64,000 bases of DNA, taken from Megasphaera stantonii. GTDB lineage: Bacteria; Bacillota; Negativicutes; Veillonellales; Megasphaeraceae. Position 1 is the first letter of the stretch. Each line of letters starts with the position of its first letter. The notes beneath the pieces are model-generated. The model had not been told where the DNA came from. It saw only the letters and a list, made by a program, of their open reading frames with translations, and made no database searches. Positions 3,187-15,202 of the stretch are shown one piece after another. The translations under genes were made by a program, and so were the position numbers. The stretch covers positions 1 to 64,000 of the forward strand of contig NZ_CP029462.1 of NCBI RefSeq assembly GCF_003367905.1, read 5' to 3'.

Positions 3187-3221
3187 GAAACCGCTTCTGT
3201 TCGCCAGAGGCGGTTTTTTTG
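3187..3221 (+). terminator. Rho-independent terminator of the mltG-trmR operon
   Basis: An AAACCGCTTCTG / CCAGAGGCGGTTT stem closes around a short TTCG-type loop and is followed by seven T. It lies 43 bases after the DUF4911 stop codon. Confidence 0.9.
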
Positions 3222-3461
3222 TTGCAAAAGGGTAATCTTTCCGTAAAAAGTCAATAATATCTGTGAAAAAGGCGCAATTTGCAGCGTGATTTGCTCTTAA
3301 TTTTCTCGGCAAAATGGTGTATAATTAGCGTATATTATTTAAAATATGCATAGCTATTCGCGGAAGTATATTTACAAAAGAAAATCCTATAGCATATAGA
3401 CATAACGTGTGTATTCGGTGGAGTATTGCTGGGATTTTCTTGATGTGAGGAGGAATTTTAT
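3222..3461 (+). promoter_or_regulatory. Promoter region and structured leader of the glycogen operon
   Basis: This gap is AT-rich and holds no gene. A TATAAT at 3320-3325 is a good -10; the best -35 at 17 bases is a weak TTAATT at 3297-3302. Transcription from about 3332 would give a leader of about 130 nt. AGAAAATCC at 3379-3387 is complementary to GGATTTTCT at 3432-3440, and an identical AGAAAATCC recurs at 3465-3473 as codons 2-4 of glgC. The middle element can pair with either flanking copy but not both. Pairing with the downstream copy would enclose the GAGGAGG Shine-Dalgarno (3447-3453) and occlude the start codon. This may be a translational switch; the pairing is seen, the function is inferred. 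Confidence 0.5.
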
Positions 3462-4613
3462 ATGAGAAAATCCAATTGTCTGGCAATGATTCTGGCGGGC
3501 GGGCGAGGGAGCCGTCTGGGCGTCCTGACGAAGGACCAGGCCAAGCCCGGCCTCTTGTTCGGCGGCAAATACCGCATTATCGACTTTCCGCTCAGTAACT
3601 GCCGCAACTCTGGTATCAACACTGTCGGCATCCTGACCCAGTACCAGCCGCTGGAGCTGAACTGGTATGTCGGCAACGGCAGCTCGTGGGACTTGGACTC
3701 CGACCGGGGCGGCGCGTATATCCTGCCGCCGTATGAAAGCGATGGCGGTTCCAACTGGTACCGTGGCACGGCCGACGCTATTTATCAGAACTTGAATTTC
3801 GTCGAAATGGTCGGAGACGACTACGTCCTCATCTTGTCGGGCGACCATATCTATTCTATGGACTACGCTAAAATGCTGGCCTTCCACAAAAAGCATCAGG
3901 CGAAAGTCACCATTGCGACCATCCGCGTTCCCTGGGACGAAGCCAGCCGCTTCGGCATCATGGTCGCCGATGAAACGATGCGCATTAATAAATTCCAGGA
4001 AAAACCGGCTAAGCCCGAAAGCAACCTGGCTTCCATGGGCATTTATATCTTCGACCGCGACGTATTGGAAAGCTATTTGAAAGCCGACGCAAAGGACGAA
4101 AAATCGGAACATGACTTCGGCAAAAACGTCATTCCCGCTATGCTGAAGGACAAGCTGCCCCTGTACGCCTATCCCTTTGAAGGCTACTGGAAGGACGTCG
4201 GAACGATCGACAGCCTGTGGCAGGCTAATATGGACCTCATCGCTGACGAACCGCCCCTCGACCTGAACAATCCGGCATGGCGCATTTATTCTGCCAGCCA
4301 GAGCATGCCGCCTCATTTCGTAGGTCCCGAAGGCAGCGCCAAGAGCTCTATCGTCGCCGAAGGCTCGGCTATCCTGGGCAACGTCATCAACTCGATCATC
4401 TTCTATGACGTGACGATTGAAAAGGGCGCGAAGGTAAGCAATTCCGTCATCCTGCCGGGCACGGTCATCAAGAAAGGCGCCGTCGTCGACAAGGCGATTA
4501 TCGGCGAACGCTGCGTCATCCATGACGGCGCCGTCGTACAGAACGAAGACGGCTCTATCGCCGTATTGGGCAGAAACGAAGAAAAGCTGGCAGCTAAAAA
4601 AGGGGAGGCATAA
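3462..4613 (+). CDS. glgC: Glucose-1-phosphate adenylyltransferase catalytic subunit GlgC
   Basis: GlgC makes ADP-glucose and PPi from glucose-1-phosphate and ATP, the committed step of glycogen synthesis. The 383-residue protein has the nucleotidyltransferase signature [13 protein letters not shown] near residue 10, the [12 protein letters not shown] segment, a DHIY metal site near 127 and a C-terminal left-handed beta-helix of hexapeptide repeats (about 290-370). The ATG follows GAGGAGG at an 8-base spacing. It is first of a five-gene glg operon. GlgC with a following GlgD is the heterotetrameric arrangement usual in Firmicutes. Its first codons take part in the leader pairing described at 3222-3461. 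Confidence 0.97.
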
Positions 4614-11803: not shown

Positions 11804-14800
11804 ATGGATTTAGGACTGTATCACAATTCACATGAATTTTATTGCCGCTCTGTTTTCGGCGCCGTTCCCTCGGGTAGCCAGGTCGTCCTGCGCCTGCGGG
11901 CCGACAAAAATATAGAAGAAAACTGGCAGGCCAGCGTGCGCCTGTGGCAGAGCAACGCCGGCGAAACGATCGTTCCCATGACTTGGGAAGGCGAGGCCTT
12001 CAAGGCGACGCTGACCATGCCGGATAAGGGGTGCCTCCTTTGGTACTATTTCATCGTTTCCTACGACGGCAAGACCGTCTATTACGGCAATAACCACGAG
12101 CAGCTCGGCGGCAAGGGCCGCATTACGGCTCAGGAGCCGCCGTCCTATCAGATTACCGTATACGATAAGGACGTCAAGACGCCGGACTGGTTCAAGAATG
12201 CCATCGTCTATCAGATTTTTCCCGACCGGTTCCGCCGTGGCAAGGATACGACGGCGGTGCTTACGGGCAAGAAGGGCGCTGTCATTCACAGTGACTGGGA
12301 CGACATACCGGCCTATTGGAAGAACCCCGATACGGGAGAGATTGCCTTTTACGATTTTTACGGCGGCAACCTGGCGGGTATCCGGGAAAAGTTTTCGTAT
12401 CTGAAAGAATTAGGCGTGACGGCGATTTATCTCAACCCTATTTTTGAAAGCTGCACGAACCATCGCTACAGCACGGCCGATTATCACCGCGTCGATCCCT
12501 TCCTGGGGACGAACGAAGAGTTTGCCGCGTTCTGCCGGGCAGCTAAGGAAGAGGGCATGGCCGTCATCCTGGACGGCGTGTTCAGCCATACGGGGGCCGA
12601 CAGCATTTATTTCAACCGCTTCGGCCATTATGACAGCGTCGGCGCCTACCAGTCCAAGGAATCGCCGTACTATTCGTGGTACCGGTTTAAGGAGTACCCG
12701 AACGACTACGAGTCGTGGTGGGGCGTCATGGACTTGCCCAACGTAGAGGAAACGGAGCCGTCGTATATGGACTTTATCATCCACAACGACGACAGCGTGC
12801 TGCGCTACTGGATGCGCCAGGGCATCAGCGGCTGGCGTCTCGACGTCGTCGACGAGCTGCCGGCGGCGTTTCTCCGCGATTTCTATAAGACGCTGAAGGA
12901 AGAAAATCCCGACGCCGTGCTCATAGGCGAGGTGTGGGAGGACGCGTCGAATAAAATCAGCTACGGCGAACAGCGCGAATACCTGTGCGGCTACGAGCTC
13001 GACAGCGCTATGAACTACGCCTTGCGGACGATTGCCGTCGATTTCATCATGGGCCGCAAGGAAGGCCGGCGCATGCTGGCTGAAATGACGCACCTCATTG
13101 AAAATTATCCGCCGGAGCACTTTTACGCCATGCTTAACCTCATCGGCAGCCACGACATCGAACGCATCTTGACAGTCCTGGCAAAAGACGCCGACTCCAA
13201 TACGCTCTCGGCCGAGGACATTGCCAAGAAGCGCCTGCGCATGCTTCTGACCTGGCAGATGACGATGCCCGGCGCACCCTGTATTTATTACGGCGATGAA
13301 GCCGGCGTGACCGGCGGAAAGGATCCGGACAACCGCCGCACCTATCCGTGGGGGCATGAGGACGAAGAAATCCTGTCGTGGACGAAAGGGCTGACGGGAC
13401 TGCGCCGTAGCAGCGACGCCCTGCGCACGGGCCGTTTCATCCCGCTGTACGCCGACGGCGACGTCTTCGCCTATGCCCGCAGCATCGAAGGCGGCCGGGA
13501 TATATTCGGACAGAAAAAAGAAGACGGCTTCTTTATCATCGCTATGAATAAAAACACTACGTCCCTGCGGACGGTCAGCGTGTACACGAACGGATTGGCC
13601 TACGGCGAGCTGACCAACGCCCTGTATCCCCGCATGAAGCCTATCCGCACGATCAACAGCCGGTTCACCCTGACGCTGCCGCCGCTGAGCGCCGTCGTCC
13701 TGAAAGGGCAGGAAGCCCGCAAAAAACGGGCCGGCGTCTTCCTGCATCCGACGTCGCTGCCTTCGGCCGGCGGGAACGGCGACCTGGGGCCTAACGCCTA
13801 TCGGTTTATCGATTTCCTCAAGACGGCCGGCCAGAGCCTATGGCAGATTCTGCCGCTGACGCCGCCGCTCATGGGCGATTCGCCCTATCTGGCCCGATCG
13901 GCCTTTGCCGGGAACGAACGGCTCATTTCCCTCGACGTGCTCCACGAATGGGGATGGCTGTCTGCCGAAGAACTGTGCGAATATAAGGAAGTCGTCGGGA
14001 ATACGAAATCCTGGGACGAAGCCTGGAAGGTCAAGAAGGACGCGCTCTGGCGTATGTCCCATAAGAAAGACCTGAACGTGCCGTGGTCGCCTTACGCCGA
14101 TTTCTGCAAGGAAAACGCGTACTGGCTCGACGACTACGCCTTGTTCCGTTCTGTCGGCGATTTCTTCGGAGGCAAGGTCTGGACAGAGTGGCCCGACAAT
14201 ATCCGCTGCCACGCTGCCGACGGCATAGCCTATTATAAAAAAGAATTGTCCGGCGCCATATCCCATTATAAATTCTTGCAGTATATTTTCTACTGCCAGT
14301 GGCAGGCTCTTCGGAAATATGCCCATGACAACGGCGTGCAGATCCTCGGTGACATGCCCATGTTTGTCGCCCACAACAGCGCCGACTGCTGGGCTCATCA
14401 GGAGCTGTTCCAGCTGGACGAAGGCGGCAATCCCACGGCCGTCGCCGGCGTGCCGCCCGATTATTTCAGCGCCGATGGCCAGCTGTGGGGCAACCCGCTG
14501 TACGACTATGAGGCCATGGCTGCCGACGGCTATCGCTGGTGGGTAGAGCGGTTCCGCGCGATATACCAGTTTGTAGACGAAGTGCGCATCGACCATTTCC
14601 GCGGCCTCGAATCGTACTGGGCTGTGCCCGCCGAAGCCAAGACGGCCCGCGAAGGCGCCTGGGTCAAAGGGCCGGGCCTCGACCTGTTCCGTGCCGTGTA
14701 TAAAGAGCTCGGTTTCCTGCCCATGGTGGCGGAGGATCTGGGCATCATTACGGACGACGTATGCGCCCTGAAAGACGCCCTGCGCCTGCCAGGCATGAAG

Positions 14801-15202
14801 ATACTCCATTTCCACATGGCAGAACGGGCCGACGGCCGGTATTCCTTTGATACAGAGCCGAACTGTCTCGTCTACACGGGAACGCACGACAACAACACGA
14901 CGCTGGGCTGGTATGAAGAAGACCTGGACGAATCGGAACGGCTACAGCTGCGCCAGGCCTTGGGCCTGCCGGACGACGCTGCGCCGGAAGCTGTCGTCCG
15001 CGCCGTCATCGCCTACGTTTACAGCCGCCGCGCCGAAACGGCCGTCGTACCCCTGCAGGACATACTGGCCCTGCCGGGAAACTGCCGCATGAACGTGCCC
15101 GGAACGGCTGAAGGAAACTGGCAGTGGCAAATGGACGGCGGCATGCTCAAGCTGGACATCGCCAAATGGCTGTCTGAATTATGTAAAGAATACGGACGAT
15201 AA
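11804..15202 (+). CDS. Bifunctional GH13 alpha-glycosidase / GH77 4-alpha-glucanotransferase fusion
   Basis: At 1132 residues this is two enzymes in one chain. Residues 1-125 look like a CBM34-type N-domain. Residues about 130-635 form a neopullulanase-like GH13 domain: VYQIFPDRFRRG, GWRLDVVDELP (nucleophile Asp near 347), LIGEVWED (Glu near 376) and SHDIERIL (Asp near 451). From about 640 a complete MalQ-type GH77 domain follows (GVFLHPTSLPS, VRIDHFRGLESYW with the nucleophile Asp, MVAEDLGIITDDV with the acid/base Glu, GTHDNNTTLGWY). The first half would hydrolyse debranched dextrins and the second disproportionate maltodextrins, complementing GlgP. AAAGGAG precedes the ATG. Both catalytic triads are intact. 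Confidence 0.93.
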   Translation: MDLGLYHNSHEFYCRSVFGAVPSGSQVVLRLRADKNIEENWQASVRLWQSNAGETIVPMTWEGEAFKATLTMPDKGCLLWYYFIVSYDGKTVYYGNNHEQLGGKGRITAQEPPSYQITVYDKDVKTPDWFKNAIVYQIFPDRFRRGKDTTAVLTGKKGAVIHSDWDDIPAYWKNPDTGEIAFYDFYGGNLAGIREKFSYLKELGVTAIYLNPIFESCTNHRYSTADYHRVDPFLGTNEEFAAFCRAAKEEGMAVILDGVFSHTGADSIYFNRFGHYDSVGAYQSKESPYYSWYRFKEYPNDYESWWGVMDLPNVEETEPSYMDFIIHNDDSVLRYWMRQGISGWRLDVVDELPAAFLRDFYKTLKEENPDAVLIGEVWEDASNKISYGEQREYLCGYELDSAMNYALRTIAVDFIMGRKEGRRMLAEMTHLIENYPPEHFYAMLNLIGSHDIERILTVLAKDADSNTLSAEDIAKKRLRMLLTWQMTMPGAPCIYYGDEAGVTGGKDPDNRRTYPWGHEDEEILSWTKGLTGLRRSSDALRTGRFIPLYADGDVFAYARSIEGGRDIFGQKKEDGFFIIAMNKNTTSLRTVSVYTNGLAYGELTNALYPRMKPIRTINSRFTLTLPPLSAVVLKGQEARKKRAGVFLHPTSLPSAGGNGDLGPNAYRFIDFLKTAGQSLWQILPLTPPLMGDSPYLARSAFAGNERLISLDVLHEWGWLSAEELCEYKEVVGNTKSWDEAWKVKKDALWRMSHKKDLNVPWSPYADFCKENAYWLDDYALFRSVGDFFGGKVWTEWPDNIRCHAADGIAYYKKELSGAISHYKFLQYIFYCQWQALRKYAHDNGVQILGDMPMFVAHNSADCWAHQELFQLDEGGNPTAVAGVPPDYFSADGQLWGNPLYDYEAMAADGYRWWVERFRAIYQFVDEVRIDHFRGLESYWAVPAEAKTAREGAWVKGPGLDLFRAVYKELGFLPMVAEDLGIITDDVCALKDALRLPGMKILHFHMAERADGRYSFDTEPNCLVYTGTHDNNTTLGWYEEDLDESERLQLRQALGLPDDAAPEAVVRAVIAYVYSRRAETAVVPLQDILALPGNCRMNVPGTAEGNWQWQMDGGMLKLDIAKWLSELCKEYGR

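Follow-up and report, generated by a model that had tools for sequence, protein, structure and literature searches.

The question raised by the glgC leader of Megasphaera stantonii is whether three short matching strands around the ribosome site form a switch or a chance arrangement. A sequence-only reading of the window (the whole stretch analysed, 64,000 nucleotides) had described a central element that can pair with only one of two partners at a time, and had likened the layout to a translational riboswitch or an RNA thermometer. The window's genome (G000; other G numbers denote compared genomes) consists of a single contig of 2.65 Mb, and glgC comes first in the operon order glgC-glgD-glgP-glgB-glgA, the unit upstream of it ending at a terminator-like hairpin at 3187-3217. 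Beside the glg genes, positions 11804-15202 of the window (+) encode a 1132-aa protein that joins an amylase-like portion to a 4-alpha-glucanotransferase portion (TIGR00217 above cut-off). The start of the operon carries the following features:

3320..3325, + strand: probable -10 box TATAAT (9/9 aligned leaders; the transcript start is guessed at about 3332-3333)
3447..3453, + strand: Shine-Dalgarno (SD) sequence GAGGAGG, read from the sequence
3462..3464, + strand: glgC start codon (GlgC N-terminus conserved in 10 aligned proteins)
3462..4613, + strand: glgC, glucose-1-phosphate adenylyltransferase (NCBIfam TIGR02091, 443.8 bits against a cut-off of 424.9; open reading frames)

The TATAAT is not among the promoters listed by a simple promoter scan; in all nine aligned glgC leaders it lies at a matching position upstream of all arms, which fits the earlier proposal of a probable promoter near 3320 ahead of the three elements. 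The relatives compared here were gathered via GlgC and are Megasphaera. A glgC match at E 1e-100 or better occurs in 12/17 genomes of the family and 12/61 of the order; five of the 15 genus genomes, all of 1.6-1.9 Mb (G003, G005, G008, G009 and G012), have no match at 1e-100.

The letters and coordinates given for the three elements are correct: AGAAAATCC at 3379-3387, GGATTTTCT at 3432-3440 and AGAAAATCC again at 3465-3473 as codons 2-4, with the ATG at 3462. Constrained folding and comparison extend them to two alternative structures, called ON and OFF below, which are built from these parts:

3344..3371, + strand: 5'-proximal leader hairpin of the ON fold, 6 bp, weak here (computed folds; a covarying hairpin at the same place in five other Megasphaera leaders)
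3378..3387, + strand: strand A, putative anti-sequestor, AAGAAAATCC (sequence, constrained fold, comparison of relatives)
3388..3431, + strand: A-B spacer, 44 nt, would-be aptamer, no clear conservation
3432..3441, + strand: strand B, putative switching strand, GGATTTTCTT, pairing with A or C (shuffles, control starts, relatives)
3465..3473, + strand: strand C, AGAAAATCC, made up of glgC codons 2-4, pairing with B in the OFF fold (sequence, constrained fold)
3481..3494, + strand: glgC codons 7-11, forming with 3419-3431 the lower part of the OFF hairpin (constrained fold)

The upstream pairing had been put at 10-12 bp, and 11 bp form in the constrained fold (3378-3388 with 3431-3441). The further statement that it leaves GAGGAGG free goes too far, because the same fold contains pairs between 3444-3448 and 3372-3376 and between 3452-3454 and 3471-3473. 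The downstream pairing exists as well but is larger than the 9 bp first read: 10 bp (3432-3441 with 3464-3473) are followed by eight pairs (3443-3450 with 3456-3463) that engage the AUG together with four GAGGAGG bases out of seven, and then by 7 and 6 further pairs reaching out to glgC codon 11.

The rarity of this arrangement was judged by a three-way score, for which the best strand B has to pair both upstream and with the start region and the weaker energy counts; dinucleotide shuffles were applied to the upstream leader only, with the start region kept fixed. The G000 score of -11.8 was reached by none of 3000 shuffles, and the same count of zero was obtained for two relatives, G001 and G013; a second run gave 0, 0 and 1 of 4000 shuffles for G000, G001 and G013. 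Set against 180 control gene starts drawn by script from 464 kb of the same genome, glgC itself not among them, the glgC z of -6.36 lies far outside the controls (mean 0.14, sd 1.08, lowest -3.36); these starts, like the 160-start set used below, were given a fixed 129-nt leader, so that some are surely misplaced and many lie within operons. Raw duplex energies were rejected as a test, since they track G+C content, and z against a leader's own shuffles was used; the raw score without composition correction is not extreme, with 16 of 249 starts reaching -11.8 and G+C-rich starts frequent among the highest scorers. In ordinary folding the leader is no more than mildly unusual (z of -1.29 for 3332-3500 and -2.21 for 3370-3490). 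The pattern AAGAAAATCC-N(30-60)-GGATTTTCTT has a single site in each of G000 and G001, at glgC in either case, and none in the 13 other genus genomes. The three-element pairing in G000 is beyond chance.

Comparison of the two states by energy, as had been suggested, places them close together: in the free ensemble ON and OFF lie within 2 kcal/mol in G000. With 12, 21 and 30 coding bases ON is favoured by 1.8, 0.5 and 0.2 kcal/mol, and with 45, 60 and 90 coding bases OFF is favoured by 1.5, 0.8 and 0.5 kcal/mol. Over this range the computed opening of the AUG goes from 0.88 (12 coding bases) to 0.14 (45) and 0.33 (90), while that of the SD stays at 0.39-0.52 and hardly differs with coding length; it is the AUG, rather than the SD, that changes in the computed ensemble. 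The balance differs among species, G001 being predicted to prefer OFF by 3.4-5.6 kcal/mol and G013 to prefer ON by 2.3-7.3 kcal/mol. The predicted cost of opening positions -14..+6, for the full leader and for one cut at -45, is 4.2 and 11.4 kcal/mol in G000, 4.0 and 7.8 in G001, 4.5 and 6.3 in G013, 5.4 and 8.9 in G004, and 5.9 and 9.7 in G016. The cut has little effect in G002 (4.9 and 5.7), G011 (5.5 and 5.5) and G014 (6.4 and 6.3), and acts in reverse in G010 (8.8 and 5.9). In silico, then, removal of the 5' part adds 7.2 kcal/mol in G000, more than at any of 160 control starts given the same cut (mean change -0.73, largest +4.97 kcal/mol; three reach +3.5).

Two folds of similar energy could be read as an RNA thermometer, and the computed AUG opening in G000 does rise with temperature, with values of 0.06, 0.27 and 0.62 at 30, 42 and 50 C. 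This rise is modest, and in the two relatives the opening hardly changes between 15 and 50 C (0.24-0.35 in G001, 0.71-0.81 in G013), which disfavours the thermometer named in the earlier description and makes it scarcely credible as an explanation of the locus.

Conservation and covariation in relatives had been proposed as a check, and the outcome is divided: three-way pairing is kept in G001 and G013, some other relatives do not have it, and the covariation is suggestive. The arms of G001 are identical to those of G000 (10/10 letters each) and enclose a different loop. Strand B of G013 departs from the G000 sequence at two letters; A matches both with full pairs, and in C one is met by a full pair through a synonymous change of codon 4 from TCC to TCA and the other by a wobble. 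The first base of B, changed from G to U, is accompanied by a C-to-A change in A and another in codon 4. Across the trio every cell pairs, 30/30 in A:B and 27/27 in B:C, and changes on both sides affect two pairs of A:B and one of B:C; when the partner is slid by one to three columns, pairing is at most 70% for A:B and 74% for B:C. The rows are arms joined by hand; a gapped reading of the G013 arm was dropped, and the gap-free register, set by eye, was confirmed by MAFFT on the joined arms. Covariation of both helices is thus suggestive and not proof, because there are three rows and shuffled letters reach the covariation measures in 60/500 (A:B) and 174/500 (B:C) cases. The trio is not independent either, being homologous: GlgC is 83-85% identical among its members, and the GlgC tree, which leaves the order of G000, G001, G013, G004 and G014 open, neither shows nor refutes the trio as a clade. 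The loop between A and B is at best slightly similar; 37 of 1000 shuffles do as well for G000-G001, 293 for G000-G013 and 910 for G001-G013. Shuffles, control starts and the two relatives together support the modelled, mutually exclusive pairing over the glgC start in the likely transcript.

In the G001 leader (L003) strand A lies within ATGCAAAGAAAATCCAAC, which resembles the glgC start ATGAGAAAATCCAAT. Strand A may have originated through copying of the glgC start.

The main rival is a plain leader hairpin, in which A:B is constitutive and clears the start or protects the 5' region of the mRNA, and B:C is an inherited accident without regulation. In 8/9 leaders, with differing letters, there is indeed a significant long-range stem that ends directly ahead of the ribosome site and has a 3' strand starting between -30 and -36, the counts per 2000 shuffles being 16 (G000), 5 (G001), 0 (G013), 7 (G004), 5 (G002), 79 (G011), 26 (G010) and 36 (G016), with G014 as the miss at 318 (Fisher 1.2e-5 over G004, G014, G002, G011 and G016). 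An earlier run of 200 shuffles gave p of 0.05 or less for A:B in 8/12 leaders. In the first form of the three-way test, on the other hand, B:C is strong only in the trio: outside it the counts per 3000 shuffles are 257 (G004; 304 of 4000 in the second run), 1295 (G014), 64 (G002), 249 (G011) and 281 (G016), with Fisher values over these five of 0.0077 for the three-way test and 0.033 for B:C alone. Near copies of G002, G011 and G016 (G006, G007 and G015) were omitted from the main shuffle, stem and widened-C tests; their three-way p was 0.035, 0.438 and 0.109 in the 200-shuffle run, whose values for G013 (0.015) and G004 (0.045) are superseded by the 3000- and 4000-shuffle runs. The preference of G013 for A:B, noted above, also suits a plain hairpin. 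Against it, B:C alone is rare by chance in the trio (2, 0 and 26 of 2000 shuffles in G000, G001 and G013), it is kept in G013 by the matched change in codon 4, and a separate triple is found in G002. With C allowed to reach +36, G002 has B at -34 and C as GCCUGGCC in codons 6-8, a score reached by 0/2000 shuffles (z -5.1, against a lowest control z of -2.77 among 160 starts), with other letters and other codons than the trio. A stem at +17..+24 falls at the edge of the ribosome footprint. G014 gives a moderate triple under the same rule (43/2000), and G004, G011, G010 and G016 are unremarkable (564, 276, 172 and 417 of 2000); these widened-C results are exploratory, because the widening was chosen after the folds had been seen. 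On this evidence we regard the plain hairpin as unlikely, though a rival to be taken seriously.

Five leaders (G002, G006, G011, G007 and G010; L004, L006, L007, L008 and L009) carry a common 5'-proximal hairpin that is well supported by covariation, with seven pairs changed on both sides. Outgroup leaders (Acidaminococcaceae, Schwartzia), judged by eye, look unlike those of Megasphaera. Succiniclasticum and other Acidaminococcaceae (L048-L053) have short glgC leaders with a near-fixed GTGGATAAATCTGTGCGTAAGGGG, or a sequence close to it, before the start, and Acidaminococcus (L054, L055) has long unrelated leaders without an Rfam match and a glgC that starts with TTG.

What the leader might respond to can be narrowed by the known classes of control. 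A metabolite riboswitch of a new class, with the A-B stretch as its aptamer, would be in keeping with the service of glgC to central storage metabolism and with the layout, strand exchange between exclusive helices being a standard riboswitch platform (PMC10907184, excerpt). Exclusive helices of which one closes the start site are found here in computed folds only, and a conserved ligand-binding aptamer was not found in the A-B stretch compared across the trio, where slight similarity is limited to one pair. Rfam 15 gave four matches in the whole window, all tRNA, and none in 13 related loci, and with E up to 5 the region 3290-3520 has two matches far below the gathering score. The lack of a match at gathering score agrees with the earlier remark that no known ligand class is recognisable; together with the lack of a shared A-B sequence it also speaks against the label of riboswitch, which we hold to be very improbable.

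A trans-acting RNA or an RNA-binding protein could free or capture B, and CsrA does act on the glgC leader of E. coli (PMC7652899, excerpt). A search of G000 for two binders, CsrA (PF02599) and Hfq (PF17209), which was positive in 3/14 and 5/14 control genomes, respectively, detected neither of them, and control by either was dropped; a trans-acting factor as the main explanation is in our judgement improbable. The G000 genome, in which neither was detected, is 99.95% complete. A leader-peptide attenuator was likewise dropped, there being no SD-led upstream ORF in the trio: an SD-like motif before an upstream start is absent from 9/12 leaders, trio included (some are present in G014, G015 and G016), and the 17-codon ORF that spans strand A (3347-3400) has no SD.

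We therefore consider it probable that the glgC leader is a cis-acting three-strand translational switch with A as its anti-sequestor. In the ON fold A:B would be a long-range stem immediately 5' of the ribosome site, with the AUG open; in the OFF fold B would pair with codons 2-4 in a long hairpin over the AUG and part of the SD sequence, so that B acts as sequestor and C as the start. Since B is transcribed before C, the ON fold should form first, and would then equilibrate with OFF as more of glgC is transcribed; with a ribosome on C, B would stay paired with A. What computation shows directly is that the strands can pair, that such pairing is rare, that two relatives retain it and that the two folds are nearly balanced in G000. 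We infer that the helices form in the cell, set GlgC output and fold in this order. With no conserved aptamer, CsrA or Hfq detected, no SD-led upstream ORF in the trio and a nearly flat computed temperature response in two of three species, we lean towards an RNA that folds ON during synthesis and is kept there by translation, or towards a trans factor that tips the balance. A bolder version, which we think rather doubtful, is a switch without a sensor whose logic and not sequence is selected: the nascent leader would fold ON, ribosomes on the first codons would keep it ON by leaving B to A, and untranslated mRNA would refold to OFF. Glycogen synthesis would in this way be informed of translation or energy state, and the design would have been built anew, with different letters and codons, in a second Megasphaera lineage.

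If real, such a switch would control bacterial glycogen synthesis post-transcriptionally by a route other than CsrA, in a genome without detected CsrA or Hfq, and would be a case of a two-fold logic that outlives its sequence inside one genus, a kind of case that covariance-model catalogues would miss. Megasphaera elsdenii is listed as a glycogen storer in an excerpt of a review that names CsrA as the post-transcriptional regulator of glycogen synthesis (PMC10395257), and the excerpt of a review of prokaryotic alpha-glucan enzymes counts CsrA among glycogen control factors and does not mention a riboswitch (PMC11046441). No report of a glgC leader switch in Megasphaera was among the literature matches listed.

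In erm-type translational attenuators, leader segments pair alternatively over a ribosome site. The glgC leader shares the alternative pairing and differs in having no SD-preceded upstream start. The cspA leader and other two-state RNA thermometers hold two folds of similar energy without a ligand; the glgC leader likewise has two near-equal computed folds, and differs in a computed temperature response that is nearly flat in 2/3 species. Like strand-exchange translational riboswitches (PMC10907184, excerpt), it has one switching strand predicted to form either of two exclusive helices, one of them closing the ribosome site; unlike them, it has no detected conserved aptamer, its sequestor pairs with early codons, and the letters of its arms vary within the genus. 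In E. coli glgC is repressed by CsrA, whose binding sites are the SD and a hairpin immediately 5' of it (PMC7652899, excerpt). The Megasphaera candidate, in which CsrA was not found, is a pairing switch and not a protein over the SD, but it has in common with that leader the same gene, control beside the SD and a hairpin just upstream of it.
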